Source: a virus
Length of the DNA: 32,830 nucleotides
IMG/VR virus record: IMGVR_UViG_3300030329_003869
Coordinates: 1-32,830 of that record
Strand: one strand, 5' to 3'
Shown piece by piece: positions 14,436 through 32,830 of the stretch. Within the stretch, counting starts at the first letter, position 1. The number at the start of each line of letters is the position of its first letter. The notes under the pieces are model-generated. The model was not told the origin of the DNA. It saw nothing but the letters and a program-made list of their open reading frames with translations, and did not search any database. A program made the position numbers and the translations under genes.

Positions 14436-14780
14436 ATGCCAGCAAGAAATGAATGGGAAAAAGAGTTTCGGCATATAACAAAAATATTCCCCGAGCGATT
14501 GCATGAGATGATGGGGAACATGACATACTCTCAATTGTCTCTTTTGTCTGGCGTTAGTCTGAGCACATTGGTCAATTGGAAAAACGGCAGAACGGTGCCA
14601 GACCTTTGTTGCCTTATTTCGGTATGCAATATCCTCGATGCATCCATTGACTGGATAGTGGGCCTTGATGAAATAGCAATGATTGAACTAGAAGAAAATG
14701 CTGATGATGTGCAAGATGCTGCATCCGACACGCAATCAAATGTGTACTACATACACCATCCTGAAGAAGAAGAGGATTAG
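14436..14780 (+). CDS. Cro/CI-type (XRE) helix-turn-helix regulator
   Basis: A 114-residue protein with an XRE-type helix-turn-helix at about residues 29-55 (MTYSQLSLLSGVSLSTLVNW, KNGRTVPDL) and the usual following helices (CLISVCNILDASIDWIVGL). The C-terminal 30 residues are acidic. It is co-directional with the lysis genes and three bases after their end, so it is probably transcribed late or constitutively rather than from a lysogeny switch. The dyad repeats at 16948-17068 are plausible targets, but this is inference. No peptidase domain of the CI or LexA type is present. Confidence 0.82.
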   Translation: MPARNEWEKEFRHITKIFPERLHEMMGNMTYSQLSLLSGVSLSTLVNWKNGRTVPDLCCLISVCNILDASIDWIVGLDEIAMIELEENADDVQDAASDTQSNVYYIHHPEEEED

Positions 14781-14797: not shown

Positions 14798-15877
14798 GTG
14801 TCAAGCAGTTGGGCAAGCGACGATCTGATTGAGAAGCATGGGTCTTTGCTTCGCGAACTCAAAAGCATGGGCATGGGTCGCCGTAGAATTGCCCGGCATA
14901 TCACAGAAAAGACGGGGGTTGAATGTGGCGAGGGCGCTTGCGGGATCGCTCTTGGAAAGATTGGCTTGCACAGTCCTAGGAAAAGAAAGGCCGCGCCGAT
15001 AGAAATAAAAGAAGAGCCAGCGGAAAATCTTGAGCAATCAATTGAGGACCTGCTTGCATCTAGAATTGAAGCGAGCCAGCGCAAAATATCAAAATCCAAG
15101 CGCCACAGAAAAACCTTAGAGCTACCCGCTGAGCCTGTTGGAATCATGGTTTTTGGTGACCCTCATTTAGACAATGACGGTTGCGACATTGCCACACTGC
15201 ACGATCACGTAACGCTTGCAAGCCAAACCGAGGGAGTCTTAGCGGCTTGCGTGGGCGATCATCTTGATAACTGGATCGGTAGACTAGGAAGACTCTATGC
15301 GAACTCCAGCATAACCGCATCCGATGGTTGGAGGTTGAGTGAGTGGTTTCTGGAATCGATGCAATGGATAGCCATCGTAGGCGGCAATCATGACGCATGG
15401 GCAAACGGTCCAGGCGTTGACCCTCTTGCTTGGCTGTCAAAAAAGTGTGGCGTACTTGCTTATGCGCCAGATGAAATACGAATGACTTTGACTTGGAAGA
15501 ATCACCCAGAGCTTGAGCCTTTGGTGTGGGTTTGTCGTCATGACTTCAGTGGTCGGTCTTGGTATCACGCCACTCACGGACCCAATAAAGAAGCGATGCT
15601 TGACGGCAAGTGCCACATCTTAACCGCTGGCCATATCCACCAATGGGGCGAACTAACGACGGAGCAAAGGCACGGACGAGTCACGAATGCAATCAGAGTC
15701 CGAGGCTACAAGCGCGCAGATGCTTTTGCGATGCAGAAAGGCTTTAGCGAGCAAGAACACGGCGAGGCTGTCTTGCTTGTGATTGACCCATTTGCATCGG
15801 GTCCAGGCAGGGTGCAAGCCTTTTGGGATATCAAGATGGGTTGTGAGTTTTTGACAATGCTCAGGAGGTCAAAGTGA
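14798..15877 (+). CDS. Calcineurin-like metallophosphoesterase
   Basis: A 359-residue protein carrying the metallophosphoesterase motif series in order: GDPHLD (120-125), GDHLDN (153-158), GGNHD (195-199), His248 in VCRHDF, and GHIH (278-281). These supply the two-metal site that hydrolyses phosphoesters in nucleotides, nucleic acids or proteins. Residues 1-60 look like an added helix-turn-helix-like segment (LLRELKSMGMGRRRIARHIT), followed by a basic linker at 60-110. The start is a GTG without a clear ribosome site; no other start lies upstream before a stop. Substrate is unknown. In phages such enzymes may act on DNA ends or modified nucleotides; that is inference. Confidence 0.85.
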   Translation: MSSSWASDDLIEKHGSLLRELKSMGMGRRRIARHITEKTGVECGEGACGIALGKIGLHSPRKRKAAPIEIKEEPAENLEQSIEDLLASRIEASQRKISKSKRHRKTLELPAEPVGIMVFGDPHLDNDGCDIATLHDHVTLASQTEGVLAACVGDHLDNWIGRLGRLYANSSITASDGWRLSEWFLESMQWIAIVGGNHDAWANGPGVDPLAWLSKKCGVLAYAPDEIRMTLTWKNHPELEPLVWVCRHDFSGRSWYHATHGPNKEAMLDGKCHILTAGHIHQWGELTTEQRHGRVTNAIRVRGYKRADAFAMQKGFSEQEHGEAVLLVIDPFASGPGRVQAFWDIKMGCEFLTMLRRSK

Positions 15878-16939: not shown

Positions 16940-17091
16940 ACTATAAACCTAAGGCCATTTTGCTGGTTATGGCAACCCTAAGGTGTTTCACTAGGCAGAA
17001 CCCCTAGATAAAATAAAAATCACTTTTTTCGTCTTTTCCGATTTACTCTGCTCCTTACGTGCGTAAGGTATGTGTAGGAGAGGCAAGGACA
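16940..17091. promoter_or_regulatory. Divergent control region with clustered dyad repeats
   Basis: This 152-bp non-coding stretch separates the leftward gene at 16939 from the rightward early genes at 17092. It holds CCTAAGG twice (16948-16954 and 16977-16983), a dyad CTAGG-7-CCTAG (16991-17007), and a near-contiguous dyad CCTTACG-TG-CGTAAGG (17053-17068). An AT-rich TAGATAAAATAAAA stretch at 17005-17018 could hold a -10 element (TAAAAT 17009-17014), but I find no good -35, so the exact promoter is unclear. The arrangement fits operators of the XRE regulator or another repressor. Confidence 0.55.
17053..17068. promoter_or_regulatory. Operator-like 16-bp inverted repeat
   Basis: CCTTACGTGCGTAAGG is a perfect dyad with 7-bp arms around TG. 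It lies 24 bases before the ATG of the first early gene and just upstream of its ribosome site (AGGAGAGG). A repressor bound here, or a small hairpin in the leader, could control the early operon. The protein partner is unknown. Confidence 0.5.
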
Positions 17092-19295: not shown

Positions 19296-19374
19296 GCGCC
19301 AGCTATTTGGTGGGCAAGCACCGGAACAGCAAGTTCATTTTGCTGCTATCCGGGGATCGATGTCAAGCTGGCGC
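19296..19374 (+). promoter_or_regulatory. Nested hairpin leader before the Sak4-like gene
   Basis: A perfect 9-bp inverted repeat (GCGCCAGCT at 19296-19304 with AGCTGGCGC at 19366-19374) encloses a second stem, CCGG/CCGG (19321-19324, 19350-19353) and CAGCAA/TTGCTG (19327-19332, 19340-19345) around a 7-base loop. It ends 19 bases before the ATG at 19394 and 7 bases before its AGGAG. In RNA it could fold as one large hairpin in the leader of the recombinase gene. A 27-codon frame (19294-19377) shares the same bases but lacks a ribosome site. Confidence 0.4.
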
Positions 19375-19393
19375 TGATAAAGGAGTAATAGAA

Positions 19394-20548
19394 ATGTCCA
19401 AATGGATAAGCAGCGGCAAGTCAGATTCGTGTGATGGCTTTGACGACTTCACGCCTGAGATGATTCTGGTGGAGGAAGATCTTAACGAACTAGAGGAAGA
19501 GAGAAGCATGAAACAGTACGGCCTAGAGGGCCTTTATGATACTGGGTTCATGTATCAAGACGACACTAAAACAAGGCAAGCACAGGAGAAAAAGAAAATG
19601 CAATTACCAACTAAAAAAACAACAGCAGCAATCGATGTTGCAAAATTACGTGTGACGATGCACGGACCACCGAAAATCGGCAAGACCACAACCCTGAGCA
19701 GGATTGACAACATGCTCATCATAGCAACCGAGGGAGGCCACGACCATATCAGCGGCTACATACAGCCAGTGGACTCATGGACTGGATTTTTAGAGGTTGC
19801 GAAAGCGATAAGTAAGAAGGACCACGACTTTAAGACGATCGCAATCGATACGATTGACAACCTAGTCCAGTTTTGTCGGGAGCATGTTTTAGCTGCGAAT
19901 AAGGCAACACATGAGGCTGACCTTCCATTCGGCAAAGGTTGGTCACTGGTGGACCAGGAATTTACACGGGTGTTTAGAAAATTAACAAACATGGGCTTAG
20001 GTGTTTGGTTTATCAGTCACACGATAGAAAAAGAGGTAGAGAATTATTTAGGTAAAAAGTACACCAAGAAGATTCCGACGCTACCAAACAAGCAACGCAA
20101 TTATATTTTAGGGTTGAGTGATGTGATCCTATTTGCCGACATTGCTCAAAATGATGACGGCAAATATGAGAGAATTCTTAGGTGCCAAAACTCGAACGAC
20201 TTCGAAGCAGGAGACAGAACAGGAAGATTACCTCCAACACTGCCCCTTGATTATGAGGCTTTTGCTGCCTGCTTTGAGACAGCAGAAGAAGGAGGCGGCC
20301 AATCTAGGTTGCAGCAGGCAAGAGGTTTAGTGGGCTCAGATGATATCACCCCAGCAATTGCTTTCGCCCATATTGAAGAGCTGAAACAAGCGGCGCAACA
20401 GATGTTTGATGACGTATCGGTGTATGAGGCCTTTGCTGGGTTTGATACGATTGAAATAAGTACAGATGCAGAAGCGGTTGACGCCTTGCTTCATGCTCAG
20501 GAGTTATTTGATACAATGGAAAAGGGGTTGCAAAATGAAAGAGGTTGA
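19394..20548 (+). CDS. Sak4-like RecA-fold ATPase (recombination)
   Basis: A 384-residue P-loop ATPase. Walker A is GPPKIGKTT (91-99), Walker B the hydrophobic strand FKTIAIDTIDNLVQF (146-160), and a later strand carries VWFISHTIEKE. This fits the phage Sak4/RecA-like family that anneals single strands or assists recombination, and neighbours agree: SSB and a resolvase follow. The ATG at 19394 has AGGAG 8 bases upstream. Residues 1-68 are extra for this family, acidic (FDDFTPEMILVEEDLNELEE), with further in-frame ATGs at 19508 and 19598. The last has AGGAG about 10 bases upstream and would give a usual-length enzyme. The long form is reported, with a short form likely or possible. Confidence 0.75.
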   Translation: MSKWISSGKSDSCDGFDDFTPEMILVEEDLNELEEERSMKQYGLEGLYDTGFMYQDDTKTRQAQEKKKMQLPTKKTTAAIDVAKLRVTMHGPPKIGKTTTLSRIDNMLIIATEGGHDHISGYIQPVDSWTGFLEVAKAISKKDHDFKTIAIDTIDNLVQFCREHVLAANKATHEADLPFGKGWSLVDQEFTRVFRKLTNMGLGVWFISHTIEKEVENYLGKKYTKKIPTLPNKQRNYILGLSDVILFADIAQNDDGKYERILRCQNSNDFEAGDRTGRLPPTLPLDYEAFAACFETAEEGGGQSRLQQARGLVGSDDITPAIAFAHIEELKQAAQQMFDDVSVYEAFAGFDTIEISTDAEAVDALLHAQELFDTMEKGLQNERG

Positions 20549-20640: not shown

Positions 20641-21087
20641 ATGGCAAGCATTAACAAAGTATTCCTCATAGGGAATTTGGGTGCAGACCCAGAGCTAAGG
20701 CAAGCGGGCTCTTCTTCGGTTTGTAATTTTCGCATTGCAACCACCGAGGTTTGGAACAGCAAGCAGACAGGCGAGAGGCAAGAAAAAACAGAATGGCACC
20801 GTATTGTAGTTTGGGGCAAGTCAGCCGAGCACTGTGGCGAGTACCTCAAAAAAGGCAGATCTTGTCATGTCGAGGGAAAACTGCAAACACGCGATTGGGA
20901 AGACAAAGACGGCAACAAAAGATACACCACAGAAATCATCGCTGATCGGGTGACCTTCTTGGGTGGCCGGGATGACGTTGATTATCAATCAGCCGTTCAT
21001 GCCGATAAGTACTCAACACCCGGAAGGGCTCCGAGTTTATTTGAGTCAAAAGGTAAGCAACTGGCTGACGATGATATACCATTCTAA
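20641..21087 (+). CDS. ssb: Single-stranded DNA-binding protein
   Basis: A 148-residue protein with the classic SSB OB-fold: [80 protein letters not shown] and [20 protein letters not shown]. The last residues, LADDDIPF, form the acidic tip that docks partner proteins in bacterial SSBs. ATG 20641 has AAGGAGG at 20628-20634, a very strong ribosome site. It coats single-stranded phage DNA during replication and recombination. Its place between the Sak4-like ATPase and the RusA-type resolvase makes a coherent recombination cassette. Confidence 0.93.
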
Positions 21088-21089
21088 GC

Positions 21090-21686
21090 ATGGATTATGT
21101 GTTGCACGTCAAAGCTCTGCTTGTGAGCGAGTCCAATAAAAGAGAACATTGGGCCAGCAAGACAAGAAGGAAGAAGACACAAAGGCAGGCAACGCGCAAT
21201 GCGTGGTTGGTTTCAGGTCGGCCGGCAATCACTGGACCTATCAGTCTGAAGCTAACCCGCATTGTTCCTAAAAGGAGACTCATTCGGGACTATGATAATT
21301 TAGTTGGATGTTTCAAGGCGGTCATTGATGAGGTAGCAGATATCTGTGGAGTCAATGACAAGGATATTATTTGGCAGCAAGATTCGTTTTCTCAAGAGGT
21401 GGGCGAGATAGGTTGCAAGGTGGAAATTATGGCAAGAATAGGGCAGGACCTAACGGAGATGCAAAGAGGGTTTTTTAAAACAATGGTCGAGTTATGGGAT
21501 GCGGTTGGCATCCCTCCAACATTGCAAGAGATGAAAGACGCAGAGAATGCAGTGGGCACAAGCCCACAGTGTTTTGTGCAGTATCTGGAGAAAAAAGGGT
21601 ACATAAGAAAAGTCCCGGGTGCATCCCGCGGCATCGTACTAACAAAAAGGGGCCATGCTTTGAAGGGTGTGGTCACTAAAAAATAA
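21090..21686 (+). CDS. RusA-type Holliday junction resolvase fused to LexA-like winged helix
   Basis: A 198-residue protein with two parts. Residues 1-115 match RusA, which cuts four-way junctions: RDYDNLVGCFKAVIDEVADI contains the Asp67/Asp69 and Lys76 pattern, and VNDKDIIW holds a further Asp pair near 90-92. Residues 120-190 read like the LexA DNA-binding domain: QRGFFKTMVELWDAVGIPPT, LQEMKDAENAVGTSPQCFVQ, YLEKKGYIRKVPGASRGIVL. The LexA protease half is absent. RusA alone is about 120 residues, so the second domain is an addition that could tether the nuclease or repress its own operon. The gene lies two bases after ssb. Confidence 0.82.
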   Translation: MDYVLHVKALLVSESNKREHWASKTRRKKTQRQATRNAWLVSGRPAITGPISLKLTRIVPKRRLIRDYDNLVGCFKAVIDEVADICGVNDKDIIWQQDSFSQEVGEIGCKVEIMARIGQDLTEMQRGFFKTMVELWDAVGIPPTLQEMKDAENAVGTSPQCFVQYLEKKGYIRKVPGASRGIVLTKRGHALKGVVTKK

Positions 21687-21716: not shown

Positions 21717-22607
21717 ATGGCAAAAGAAGATCTAAGATTCCATCGAGGCTTTTTTGACAACATTAAAATAAAACGGTTCAGGGCAGAGTTTGACAAGGCA
21801 GCCTGCCCACTATGCAGCCTAATGAAAATATGGGTTTATGCGGCAATGCATAAGTCAGAGGGAGAATTTACTGGCGATCACAGCAAGGAAGACTTTGAGC
21901 TAATGGGTGACTGGAATGGAACACCCGGCAAATTTTCCGAGATGCTAATCAAGCACAGGCTGATAGTTGAAACTGCTGACGGATACGCAATCAATGACTG
22001 GGATGAGTGGCAGCCATGGGTAGCCAAAAGTAAACAACGCAGTGCGTCAGCAAGGGCCAATGCTCAAAACAGATGGAGCAAGCGCAATGCGAAATCTGAA
22101 ATTGGCAATGCGGAATCTGAAATTGGCAATGCGGAATCTGAAATTGGCAATGCGGAATCTGAAATTGGCAATGCGGTTTCTAAAATTCGCAATGCTCCTA
22201 CTCCAAATCCAATACCAACTCCAAATCCAAAACCAATACCAATACCAGACGCGCAGGGAGATGATTACCCTAGGGACATCATCAAGTGGTTCAATCGTTC
22301 CGTGGCTCCTCCTTTTTCCTCTTGTTCAGCTATAACCAAAAATGTCAGGTGGAACATCATGCGGGCGATTGACACGCTTAGGGAGATTCATGGGTCGGAT
22401 GCGGTTGATGGTCGAGAGGTACAGGCGTTTCAGGATTATTTGCTGATGGCTAAAGAGCAATATGAGCATGGGCAAGTGCCGTGCAAATGGGGAATCTCGA
22501 ATCTGTGTAAAGAGGACAATATCACCAAAATCCATGACGGGGTATTTTCACCCAAGGAGGCACCCGCAGATTGGGCAGCCGAGGCAAAGGGCAAGGTGTC
22601 GGAATGA
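21717..22607 (+). CDS. Replication initiator (lambda O-like layout) with embedded iterons
   Basis: A 296-residue protein. Residues 1-100 look like the winged-helix DNA-binding domain of phage replication initiators or replisome organisers (LMKIWVYAAMHKSEGEFTGD; KFSEMLIKHRLIVETADGYA; INDWDEWQPW). Residues 122-160 consist of tandem seven-residue repeats (ESEIGNA), encoded by 21-bp iterons, then a Pro/Asn/Thr-rich linker (about 160-176). The C-terminal part (IIKWFNRSVAPPFSSCSAIT onward) resembles the partner-binding end that recruits host helicase or loader. This order, domain-iterons-linker-domain, parallels lambda O, where the origin lies inside the gene. Start ATG 21717 has GGGGAAGAG upstream. 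It overlaps the next gene by four bases. Confidence 0.76.
   Translation: MAKEDLRFHRGFFDNIKIKRFRAEFDKAACPLCSLMKIWVYAAMHKSEGEFTGDHSKEDFELMGDWNGTPGKFSEMLIKHRLIVETADGYAINDWDEWQPWVAKSKQRSASARANAQNRWSKRNAKSEIGNAESEIGNAESEIGNAESEIGNAVSKIRNAPTPNPIPTPNPKPIPIPDAQGDDYPRDIIKWFNRSVAPPFSSCSAITKNVRWNIMRAIDTLREIHGSDAVDGREVQAFQDYLLMAKEQYEHGQVPCKWGISNLCKEDNITKIHDGVFSPKEAPADWAAEAKGKVSE
22084..22195. repeat. Five 21-bp iterons, probable replication origin
   Basis: Units start at 22084, 22105, 22126, 22147 and 22168, with a partial sixth at 22189. Units 2 to 4 are identical; units 1 and 5 differ slightly. Each unit junction carries ATTGGCAAT (last one ATTCGCAAT), a short dyad with ATTG and CAAT arms, so five dyads are spaced exactly two DNA turns apart. 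The array lies within the initiator gene and keeps frame. Tandem array plus dyads fits an initiator-binding origin. Spacers are absent, so it is not a CRISPR array. Confidence 0.75.
22195..22247 (+). other. G-free A/C tract beside the iterons (possible unwinding element)
   Basis: These 53 bases contain no G on the + strand, only A, C and T (CTCCAAATCC, AATACCAACT and similar). They follow the iterons directly. In lambda the AT-rich unwinding region also follows the iterons. Here AT richness is moderate, but strand asymmetry is extreme. The tract encodes the Pro/Asn/Thr linker of the initiator, so coding may also explain it. Confidence 0.45.
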
Positions 22608-23866: not shown

Positions 23867-23998
23867 ATGCAGCATAAGCACGCGGAATGCCTGAGGGCGA
23901 TTCGGTACAATAAGGTACAAGCGGGGTTTATGCGGTGTGGTTTCATGTGGCGCATAAAAAATGGAATTAGAGCAGCAGTTCGAAGAAGTAGAAATTGA
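23867..23998 (+). CDS. Possible small basic ORF before the methyltransferase
   Basis: A 43-codon frame filling part of the 160-bp gap 23801-23960, starting at ATG 23867 with AAGGA five to nine bases upstream and overlapping the methyltransferase start. The product is basic (HKHAECLRAIRYNKVQAGFM; RIKNGIRAAVRRSRN). The same gap has GGTACAA twice (23904-23910 and 23914-23920), spaced ten bases, which might be a regulatory repeat. The gap could equally be an untranslated leader for the next gene, which itself has no good ribosome site. Confidence 0.3.
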   Translation: MQHKHAECLRAIRYNKVQAGFMRCGFMWRIKNGIRAAVRRSRN

Positions 23999-25613
23999 TA
24001 AGTTAAAAACCCATCCTGGCAACCCTAGAAATGGGGATATTGACCTGATTGGCGAGAGCATAAACGTCAACGGGTTCTTCGGTGCTATCGTAGCCCAGAG
24101 GTCAACAGGCCGTATTTTAGCGGGCAATCACAGATGGAAGGCTGCAAAGGCAGAAGGCAAGGATAAGGTCCCAGTTGCTTGGGTAGACGTTGATGACGAC
24201 CATGCGCTTAGGATTCTGCTTGCTGACAATCGGACCAATGATGTGGCCAGCTATGATGAAAGCCAGCTTGCAAGCCTACTTGCAGAGTTGAATGAGTCTT
24301 GCGGTCTCGAGGGAACAGGCTACAAGCCTGAAGACCTTGAGCAGCTGCTAACTGAGGTATCACCGGAGCCAGAGCCAAGTCAGAGCCAGGACGAGAGGGA
24401 TGCAGAGAATGAAGCCCTTGACGTAATCCCTGAACGTATAGAGGCAAGGACTAAGCAAGGCGAGGTCGTGAAGCTAGGTCAACATAGGTTGCACTGCGTT
24501 GATTGCCTTGAGCTGATGAGAAGCCTTGAACCCAATAGCATTGATGCTGTTGTGACTGATCCTCCTTATGGCATTGGCTTCATGGGAAAGGGCTGGGATG
24601 TAGCCGTACCCGGTGAGGACTGGGCCCGGGAGTGTCTTCGAGTCCTGAAGCCCGGTGGGCACTTGATAGCGTTCGCAGCTACTCGGACGGTCCACCGGTT
24701 GACCGTCGCAGTAGAGGACGCAGGGTTTGAGATACGCGACCAGATAGGCTGGCTCCAATGGCAAGGTTTCCCGAAGTCGATGGACGTATCCAAGGCGATC
24801 GACAAGGCGGCAGGATTAACTAGGGAAGTGATTGGGGAAAAAATTACTGCCGATGGAAAAAAAGCCTCTGCGCGTCTTGCCAAAAGGGCGCGCGGTGGTA
24901 AAGGAGGTTTACAAGGGGATAAGTATGGCACCTATAAAAATGATCCTGTAAAAACAACAATGGTCACTGCCCCCGCCTCCCCAGAATCTCGCCGCTGGTC
25001 AGGATGGGGTACCGCCCTGAAGCCTGCACAGGAGCCGGCTGTGCTCGCACGCAAACCGCTCGACGGCACCGTTGCGGAGAACGTTTTGAAATGGGGCACG
25101 GGTGGACTCAACATTGATGCAACCCGGATTGCGTATGGTGATGAGTCTTGGCCCGGCCCTAGTGAGGAGTTGAAAACACAAATAAGTGGTATCCCAGGCG
25201 CAAACGGAACCATGGGGGATTTTCAAGGAGCGGTCGAGTGCATCCCTAGTGATCTCGGCAGATGGCCAGCAAACATTTACTATTGCCCCAAGCCATCAAG
25301 AGGCGAAAAAGAGGAAGGATGCGAAGATCTTCAAGAAACTGAATCAGCTTCACCAGCAGAACCAGGAGGCTGGAAAGAGAAAGCAGTCAAGAACTATCAT
25401 CCAACGGTCAAGCCCACTAAGCTGATGCGATGGCTGCTTAGATTAGTCACTCCACAGAATGCAGTTGTGCTTGAGCCATTCGCAGGAAGTGGGACAACTC
25501 TGGTTGCAGCAGAGCGTGAAGGGTTCAAGGTCATAGCGGCTGAGATATCACCTGAATACTGTGACATCATCAGGGCAAGAGTTGAGAAGGCGATGAATCC
25601 AGATGACATATAG
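23961..25613 (+). CDS. ParB-domain / DNA methyltransferase fusion
   Basis: A 550-residue protein. Residues 1-115 are a ParB/sulfiredoxin-fold domain (VEIDKLKTHPGNPRNGD; GFFGAIVAQ; GRILAGNHRWKAAKAEG in the ParB box position). No ParB helix-turn-helix follows. Residues 165-550 are a DNA amino-methyltransferase of beta order: motif IV DPPY (200-203), a target-recognition insert (about 285-430), the HPTVKP box (480-485) and the AdoMet-binding FAGSGTT (507-513). It methylates adenine N6 or cytosine N4 in a sequence that cannot be read from the protein. Such proteins can protect phage DNA from host restriction. ATG 23961 is the first start after a stop. It overlaps terS by 11 bp. Confidence 0.88.
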   Translation: MELEQQFEEVEIDKLKTHPGNPRNGDIDLIGESINVNGFFGAIVAQRSTGRILAGNHRWKAAKAEGKDKVPVAWVDVDDDHALRILLADNRTNDVASYDESQLASLLAELNESCGLEGTGYKPEDLEQLLTEVSPEPEPSQSQDERDAENEALDVIPERIEARTKQGEVVKLGQHRLHCVDCLELMRSLEPNSIDAVVTDPPYGIGFMGKGWDVAVPGEDWARECLRVLKPGGHLIAFAATRTVHRLTVAVEDAGFEIRDQIGWLQWQGFPKSMDVSKAIDKAAGLTREVIGEKITADGKKASARLAKRARGGKGGLQGDKYGTYKNDPVKTTMVTAPASPESRRWSGWGTALKPAQEPAVLARKPLDGTVAENVLKWGTGGLNIDATRIAYGDESWPGPSEELKTQISGIPGANGTMGDFQGAVECIPSDLGRWPANIYYCPKPSRGEKEEGCEDLQETESASPAEPGGWKEKAVKNYHPTVKPTKLMRWLLRLVTPQNAVVLEPFAGSGTTLVAAEREGFKVIAAEISPEYCDIIRARVEKAMNPDDI

Positions 25614-32583: not shown

Positions 32584-32830
32584 ATGTCTTTTGCTTATTC
32601 TACAAGCCTAACCACAACCAAGGACAAGGTGCGGTTTAGGATAGGCGACACAGATTCAAACAGGCCTCTTCTTAGTGACGAAGAAATAAATGCGGTCATT
32701 GCCTCTAAGCCTTCCGTGCTTCCTGCAAGCATTGAATGTGTTGAAGCTATTCTTGCGAAGATAGCCCGTGATGTTGACCGCAATGCGGCTGGCATAACAA
32801 GTTCAAGATCGCAGGCATACAATCATTACC
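32584..32830 (+). CDS. Head-tail connector protein, N-terminal part (continues at base 3)
   Basis: The 5' part of the connector gene, with AGGGG seven bases before ATG 32584, running off the right edge in frame. It continues at base 3 of the window and ends at 284, giving 143 residues: MSFAYSTSLTTTKDKVRFRI, GDTDSNRPLLSDEEINAVIA and the helical rest. The opening (KDKVRFRIGDTDSNRPLLSD, then DEEI) is a typical start of phage head-tail connector proteins of the gp6 kind. It follows the terminator by 19 bases, so tail genes may depend on read-through or an undetected promoter. Confidence 0.8.
   Translation, partial: MSFAYSTSLTTTKDKVRFRIGDTDSNRPLLSDEEINAVIASKPSVLPASIECVEAILAKIARDVDRNAAGITSSRSQAYNHY
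32732..32830. repeat. Direct terminal repeat, right copy
   Basis: This is an exact copy of bases 1-99. The connector gene that starts at 32584 runs into this copy in frame and continues from base 3 at the left edge. No inverted repeats or cohesive-end signals are visible next to it. Confidence 0.95.

Follow-up and report, generated by a model that had tools for sequence, protein, structure and literature searches.

A phage RusA-family resolvase joined to a protease-less LexA-type winged helix within a recombination and replication operon

What would a Holliday junction resolvase do with the DNA-binding domain of a repressor? The question is raised by one gene of the IMG/VR virus record IMGVR_UViG_3300030329_003869, whose 32,830 bases were analysed over their full length and are here called the window. 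A first-pass annotation, made from the letters alone, had described its product as a complete RusA domain followed by a LexA-like DNA-binding domain. A natural RusA with a second domain derived from a repressor offers a way to ask whether junction resolution can be steered within a genome. The record carries a 99-base direct repeat at its two ends and is thus probably a complete genome, circular or permuted; no integrase was recognised among the open reading frames searched in it. The coordinates of all features are collected in Table 1.

The N-terminal part of the protein (residues 16-94) matches PHROG 34, the RusA-like resolvases, in a profile search (E 1e-6). The protein was not picked up by the Pfam RusA model, even with the threshold at E 10, so the completeness of this domain rests on PHROG 34, on an alignment of 42 sequences and on a structure model. 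Residues R57, D67, D69, N70, L71, G73, K76, D80 and D90 are invariant in the RusA subfamily concerned and are all kept in the fusion; K76, the conserved lysine, is counted with D67, D69 and D90 among the candidate catalytic residues. The 42 sequences gave a full-length model with a mean pLDDT of 72, the RusA part reaching about 70-89 and the winged helix about 60. In Foldseek its seven top-ranking PDB matches are all E. coli RusA (2h8c, 2h8e, 1q8r; E 5e-5 to 2e-4), and no other PDB match has E below 0.001. The fold, by profile and by structure model, together with the catalytic carboxylates and the conserved lysine, identifies a member of the RusA family, and the domain is complete, as first annotated.

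The C-terminal part proved to be of the LexA DNA-binding family, and not of an unrelated one, in the profile search that the first-pass annotation had proposed. Residues 119-181 match the Pfam model LexA_DNA_bind (PF01726) with 31.9 bits (E 1.1e-7), the curated cut-off being 23.7 bits; phrog_3502 and phrog_362, phage families of small LexA-like proteins, were matched as well, and a direct comparison with LexA of solved structure showed weak similarity. Mixed alignments of RusA and LexA sequences were misaligned, and the two folds were therefore predicted from separate alignments. Modelled separately, residues 117-198 (pLDDT 75) have LexA as all of their 10 best PDB matches in Foldseek, including the LexA-DNA complexes 3jsp and 3jso and also 3k2z. 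Both structures are predicted from alignments of relatives; the folds that they indicate are those given by the profiles. The S24 autoprotease and dimerisation domain is absent: the protein stops 11 residues past the winged helix, and the NCBIfam lexA model (TIGR00498) matches only over its positions 2-70 of 203, far under the model cut-off. As this match is restricted to the DNA-binding end, it indicates that there is no protease domain, again as first annotated.

In its overall fold the domain is of the LexA type, and its wing retains the GASRGI motif. LexA contacts DNA through S39, N41, A42, E44 and E45 (PMC3091678); in the fusion, V, T, S, Q and C take these places, so that all five are replaced if this stretch is correctly aligned; the helix-turn-helix has one residue fewer than that of LexA. 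From the recognition helix onward (residues 154-198) the protein is strongly basic, with 10 K/R against 1 D/E. LexA-type boxes were looked for in the phage, as the first-pass annotation had advised: neither CTGT-N8-ACAG (E. coli type) nor GAAC-N4-GTTC (Bacillus type) occurs in exact form, the host's own box possibly being different; one-mismatch SOS-type sites lie at or under chance, and no multi-copy LexA-type box was found. Lacking an autoprotease domain, the LexA contacts and exact SOS boxes of these two common types in its genome, the protein does not have the features of a LexA SOS regulator.

Table 1. Features of the phage genome and of compared loci. Positions refer to the window unless a locus handle precedes them.
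Feature	Position	Strand	Basis or remark
RusA-LexA DNA-binding domain fusion gene	21090..21686	+	single 198-aa frame, ATG to stop
RusA-type resolvase domain, residues 1-118	21090..21443	+	PHROG 34, 42-sequence alignment, Foldseek vs PDB
LexA-type winged helix-turn-helix without protease domain, residues 119-187	21444..21650	+	PF01726, phrog_3502, phrog_362, Foldseek
Basic C-terminal tail, residues 188-198	21651..21683	+	least conserved part of fusion
Candidate catalytic D67	21288-21290	+	invariant in 42-sequence alignment
Candidate catalytic D69	21294-21296	+	invariant in 42-sequence alignment
Candidate catalytic D90	21357-21359	+	invariant in 42-sequence alignment
Direct terminal repeat, 99 bases	1-99 and 32732-32830		
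HTH_3 (Cro/CI-type) regulator, separate	14436..14780	+	PF01381 E 4.5e-5, barely over cut-off
Exonuclease/phosphoesterase-like gene	14798-15877		early operon
Palindrome CTTACGT[G/A]CGTAAG, early operon leader, candidate operator	17054..17067	.	alignment with L017/L004
Sak4-like annealing/recombination ATPase	19307..20548	+	phrog_124 E 2e-51
Single-strand DNA-binding protein (SSB)	20644..21087	+	phrog_44 E 5e-51
Replication initiation protein, directly downstream of fusion	21717..22607	+	phrog_3926 E 4e-11
Tandem 21-nt iterons within initiator gene, candidate replication origin	22084..22195	+	repeat search, family D1
ParB-N domain joined to N6/N4 DNA methylase	23961-25613		2.3 kb downstream of fusion
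GCAA-N6-TTGC copies	359, 3045, 9366, 10670, 13222, 19036, 19628, 23645, 24270, 25119, 26216, 26479, 30985		coding sequence
ParB-N/methylase region of L002, with second ParB-N-like ORF directly after	L002:4804-6940		
LexA-like/rusA overlapping pair, mEp390	L006:3995-4698		
LexA-like/rusA overlapping pair, SfV	L118:3001-3713		
LexA-like/rusA overlapping pair, Ayreon	L129:3001-3713		
LexA-type domain joined to HNH endonuclease, Enterobacter phage ENT1	L124:2998-3729		

Could the two domains be separate genes joined by a missed frameshift? This reading was ruled out by the relatives and by dN/dS. Three other metagenome contigs carry the same fusion as a single intact gene, with 91-92% identity (full length and 91% identical in L001 and L002; 92% in L003, from residue 41 on), and a fourth (L004) stops within the RusA part. 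Against these relatives dN/dS is 0.05 overall, 0.04 in the RusA part, 0.044 in the LexA part and 0.02 at the domain junction, with synonymous sites close to saturation (dS about 1); the tail is the least conserved part (0.39, from a small sample). These values indicate that both domains and their junction are under strong purifying selection, and such low ratios at this dS would not be expected of a sequencing error, of a fusion formed recently by accident or of an appendage in decay. On comparative sequence grounds, the RusA resolvase with a LexA-type DNA-binding arm is thus a real and conserved fusion, and a rare one.

Its rarity emerged from several searches, which reach only relatives near enough to carry the searched motifs. 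No match to the fusion was found among 50,697 phage records. When 84,980 species genomes were scanned with the fusion protein, 27 LexA-type DNA-binding domains came up, of which almost all belong to full LexA-type proteins, together with a single RusA standing alone (L025), but no second fusion. Degenerate-motif scans of IMG/VR gave known contigs and false matches only, plasmids yielded just LexA-like pieces or weak chance matches, and in 395 genomes of one phylum every match was to the LexA part. When the LexA profile was run over all loci, the domain occurred in RusA genes solely in this fusion group; it lies neither in nor beside (flanks up to 3 kb) about 50 other RusA relatives, and among 30 records with RusA relatives any LexA-type match was seen in two and one over the cut-off in one. 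The long tail of Mx8 p24 was considered as a second fusion and rejected, the LexA profile giving no match there. According to the first-pass annotation the fusion is not known to have been characterised, and we likewise found no description of it in the literature searched; as far as these sources show, the architecture appears to be new.

The fusion gene lies in an early operon that runs from the exonuclease/phosphoesterase-like gene through small genes to the Sak4-like gene, the SSB gene, the fusion, the initiator gene and the ParB-N/methylase gene. Only 2 nt separate the SSB stop from the ATG of the fusion, and five iterons follow 0.4 kb downstream. Their position inside the initiator gene is a lambda-O-like origin layout. 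In one relative (L002) a second ParB-N-like ORF directly follows the ParB-N/methylase gene.

With modest confidence, we favour the view that the protein is a phage RusA-family Holliday junction resolvase to which the winged helix adds a duplex-DNA-binding arm with a specificity of its own. Its operon also supplies a Sak4-type annealing protein, an SSB and a replication initiator, and the enzyme would resolve the branched DNA that arises as the phage recombines and replicates. RusA cuts branched and not linear DNA, and RusA enzymes are thought to read DNA shape and the dinucleotide at the cut. In LexA, dimerisation comes from the interface of the protease domain; here RusA, dimeric by homology, would present two winged helices. 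The arm would most likely raise the affinity for phage duplex DNA beside the junction, or the preference for it, through a private specificity other than the SOS box. To our knowledge, every winged helix of the LexA family that has been studied recognises a specific dyad. One of them, the protease-less LexA homologue gp6 of phage GIL01, has been shown experimentally to bind site-specifically to a palindrome of its own, GaCACAnnTGTGaC, and switches on late genes (PMC6182141), so for the fusion, too, one would naturally expect a specificity peculiar to it. The profiles, the structure models and the invariant residues, the equal purifying selection on both domains and at their junction, the operon neighbours, the basic stretch from the recognition helix onward and the neighbouring LexA-like and rusA genes of other phages all support this view of a resolvase with an added arm. 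Against it count the moderate confidence of the winged-helix model (pLDDT about 60 in the full-length protein, 75 alone), the shortened helix-turn-helix with its altered LexA contacts, and the RusA relatives (about 50) that do without the arm.

A stronger version, in which the resolvase would also be a sequence-specific binder directed to sites of its own genome, or regulating them, seems possible to us but rather doubtful. Direction to the nearby origin and regulation of its own operon had both been proposed in the first-pass annotation. The candidate sites are the palindrome CTTACGTNCGTAAG, the iterons and GCAA-N6-TTGC. The palindrome, unique within the window (where it reads CTTACGTGCGTAAG), lies between divergent genes just upstream of a ribosome-binding site, and is perfect (CTTACGTACGTAAG) in the relatives L131 and L017.

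In a related reading, which we regard as unlikely, the protein would be both enzyme and regulator: the winged helix would bind CTTACGTNCGTAAG as an operator in the early-operon leader, the RusA dimer would supply the dimerisation, and the protein would regulate its own recombination-replication operon besides resolving junctions. It is tempting to see such an operator in a palindrome that is conserved inside an otherwise diverged leader, yet the adjoining ribosome-binding region is conserved too, the site is present in a single copy, and other palindromes of about this length are no rarity there (eight with arms of at least 7, against about five by chance in our own estimate). The site shares its 6-2-6 layout with that of GIL01 gp6, GaCACAnnTGTGaC (PMC6182141); moreover, stand-alone phage LexA-like proteins can be regulators, and LexA-like and rusA genes share operons elsewhere. 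However, these phages also encode and conserve a distinct HTH_3 regulator (75% identical in L131), which is a more ordinary binder and could be an equally good candidate for this palindrome.

A further pattern was noticed. GCAA-N6-TTGC occurs 13 times in the window, against about 2 copies expected at that or any other spacing and 2.6 (maximum 10) in 300 synonymous shuffles, and four of the six sites covered by relatives are kept. The copies lie in coding sequence, mostly in one reading frame, and the pattern was picked out after many had been inspected; they may serve a phage regulator in the manner of operators, or reflect a coding effect.

It is improbable, in our opinion, that the winged helix has no sequence preference and acts as a non-specific or structure-specific grip on duplex DNA, or as a protein-protein contact. 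The replacement of all five LexA base contacts, the residue missing from the helix-turn-helix, the strongly basic surface and tail, and the lack of a multi-copy LexA-type box in the phage would fit such a role, but the strong purifying selection on the domain core speaks against it, as does the specific dyad bound by GIL01 gp6, in keeping with the family (PMC6182141).

The winged helix might instead sense DNA modification, in the manner of N6-methyladenine readers, and be paired with the N6/N4 DNA methylase of the phage, encoded 2.3 kb downstream. We hold this to be very improbable, partly because a RusA enzyme acts on branched rather than linear DNA. Winged helix-nuclease fusions that read N6-methyladenine do exist, but they carry a DpnI-like motif whereas the winged helix of the fusion is of the LexA family, and neither LexA nor RusA is mentioned in the text that describes them (PMC11037411). 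Competition with host LexA at SOS boxes, which the first-pass annotation had suggested, is the least credible reading: the LexA-type fold and the GASRGI motif would agree with it, but the contact residues (after PMC3091678) are replaced, one-mismatch sites are no commoner than chance, and exact boxes of the two common types are absent from the phage, even if the host's type may differ.

The resolvase with an added arm can be compared with several known systems. The closest in sequence is the REHW...DxDNLxGxxK RusA subfamily (BcepMigl gp66, Mx8 p24 and dozens of IMG/VR phages), which shares the domain and its invariant residues at about 30-45% identity; these relatives stop after the RusA fold or carry tails that do not match LexA, and a LexA-type domain was absent from all that were examined. 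The closest in operon logic are SfV orf42 and mEp390 gp43 (PHROG 362), protease-less LexA-type proteins encoded, like the domain of the fusion, with RusA in one operon. There, however, the genes are separate and in reverse order, and the RusA is of the E. coli type, with its lysine 4 residues past the second Asp; in the subfamily of the fusion the distance is 7, so that its RusA is not the type adjoining LexA-like genes in lambdoid phages. Unlike the fusion, mEp390 gp43 keeps four of the five LexA contacts (S39, N41, A42, E45) and may, judging from these, bind SOS boxes. The end of a small LexA-like gene overlaps the following rusA by 4 nt in mEp390, SfV and Ayreon. The frames of such a pair also abut or overlap in Kp4866-6, and EPP-1 and ENT1 have both genes within about 1 kb of each other; Mx9 and HTVC103P have a LexA-like gene near replication genes, with no RusA recognised close by. 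This recurring link, which here takes the form of one polypeptide, suggests a shared pathway, and with it a function for many small LexA-like phage proteins.

The tectivirus protein GIL01 gp6 resembles the fusion in its protease-less LexA DNA-binding domain, with a non-SOS specificity of its own, but is a stand-alone transcription activator without a nuclease. Junction nucleases with an added DNA-binding module are known from eukaryotes, namely Ydc2/Cce1 with a SAP motif and GEN1 with a chromodomain, both nucleases and modules being unrelated to those of the fusion. DpnI, HhiV4I and other winged-helix fusion endonucleases likewise combine a nuclease with a winged-helix DNA reader, although their nuclease families differ from RusA. 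The nuclease family also differs in the protein of Enterobacter phage ENT1, whose reader is of the same LexA type. This LexA-HNH protein, identical in BHUENT3 and BHUENT6 and full length solely in ENT1 and these two records, represents a second, independent fusion of a LexA-type domain with a nuclease.
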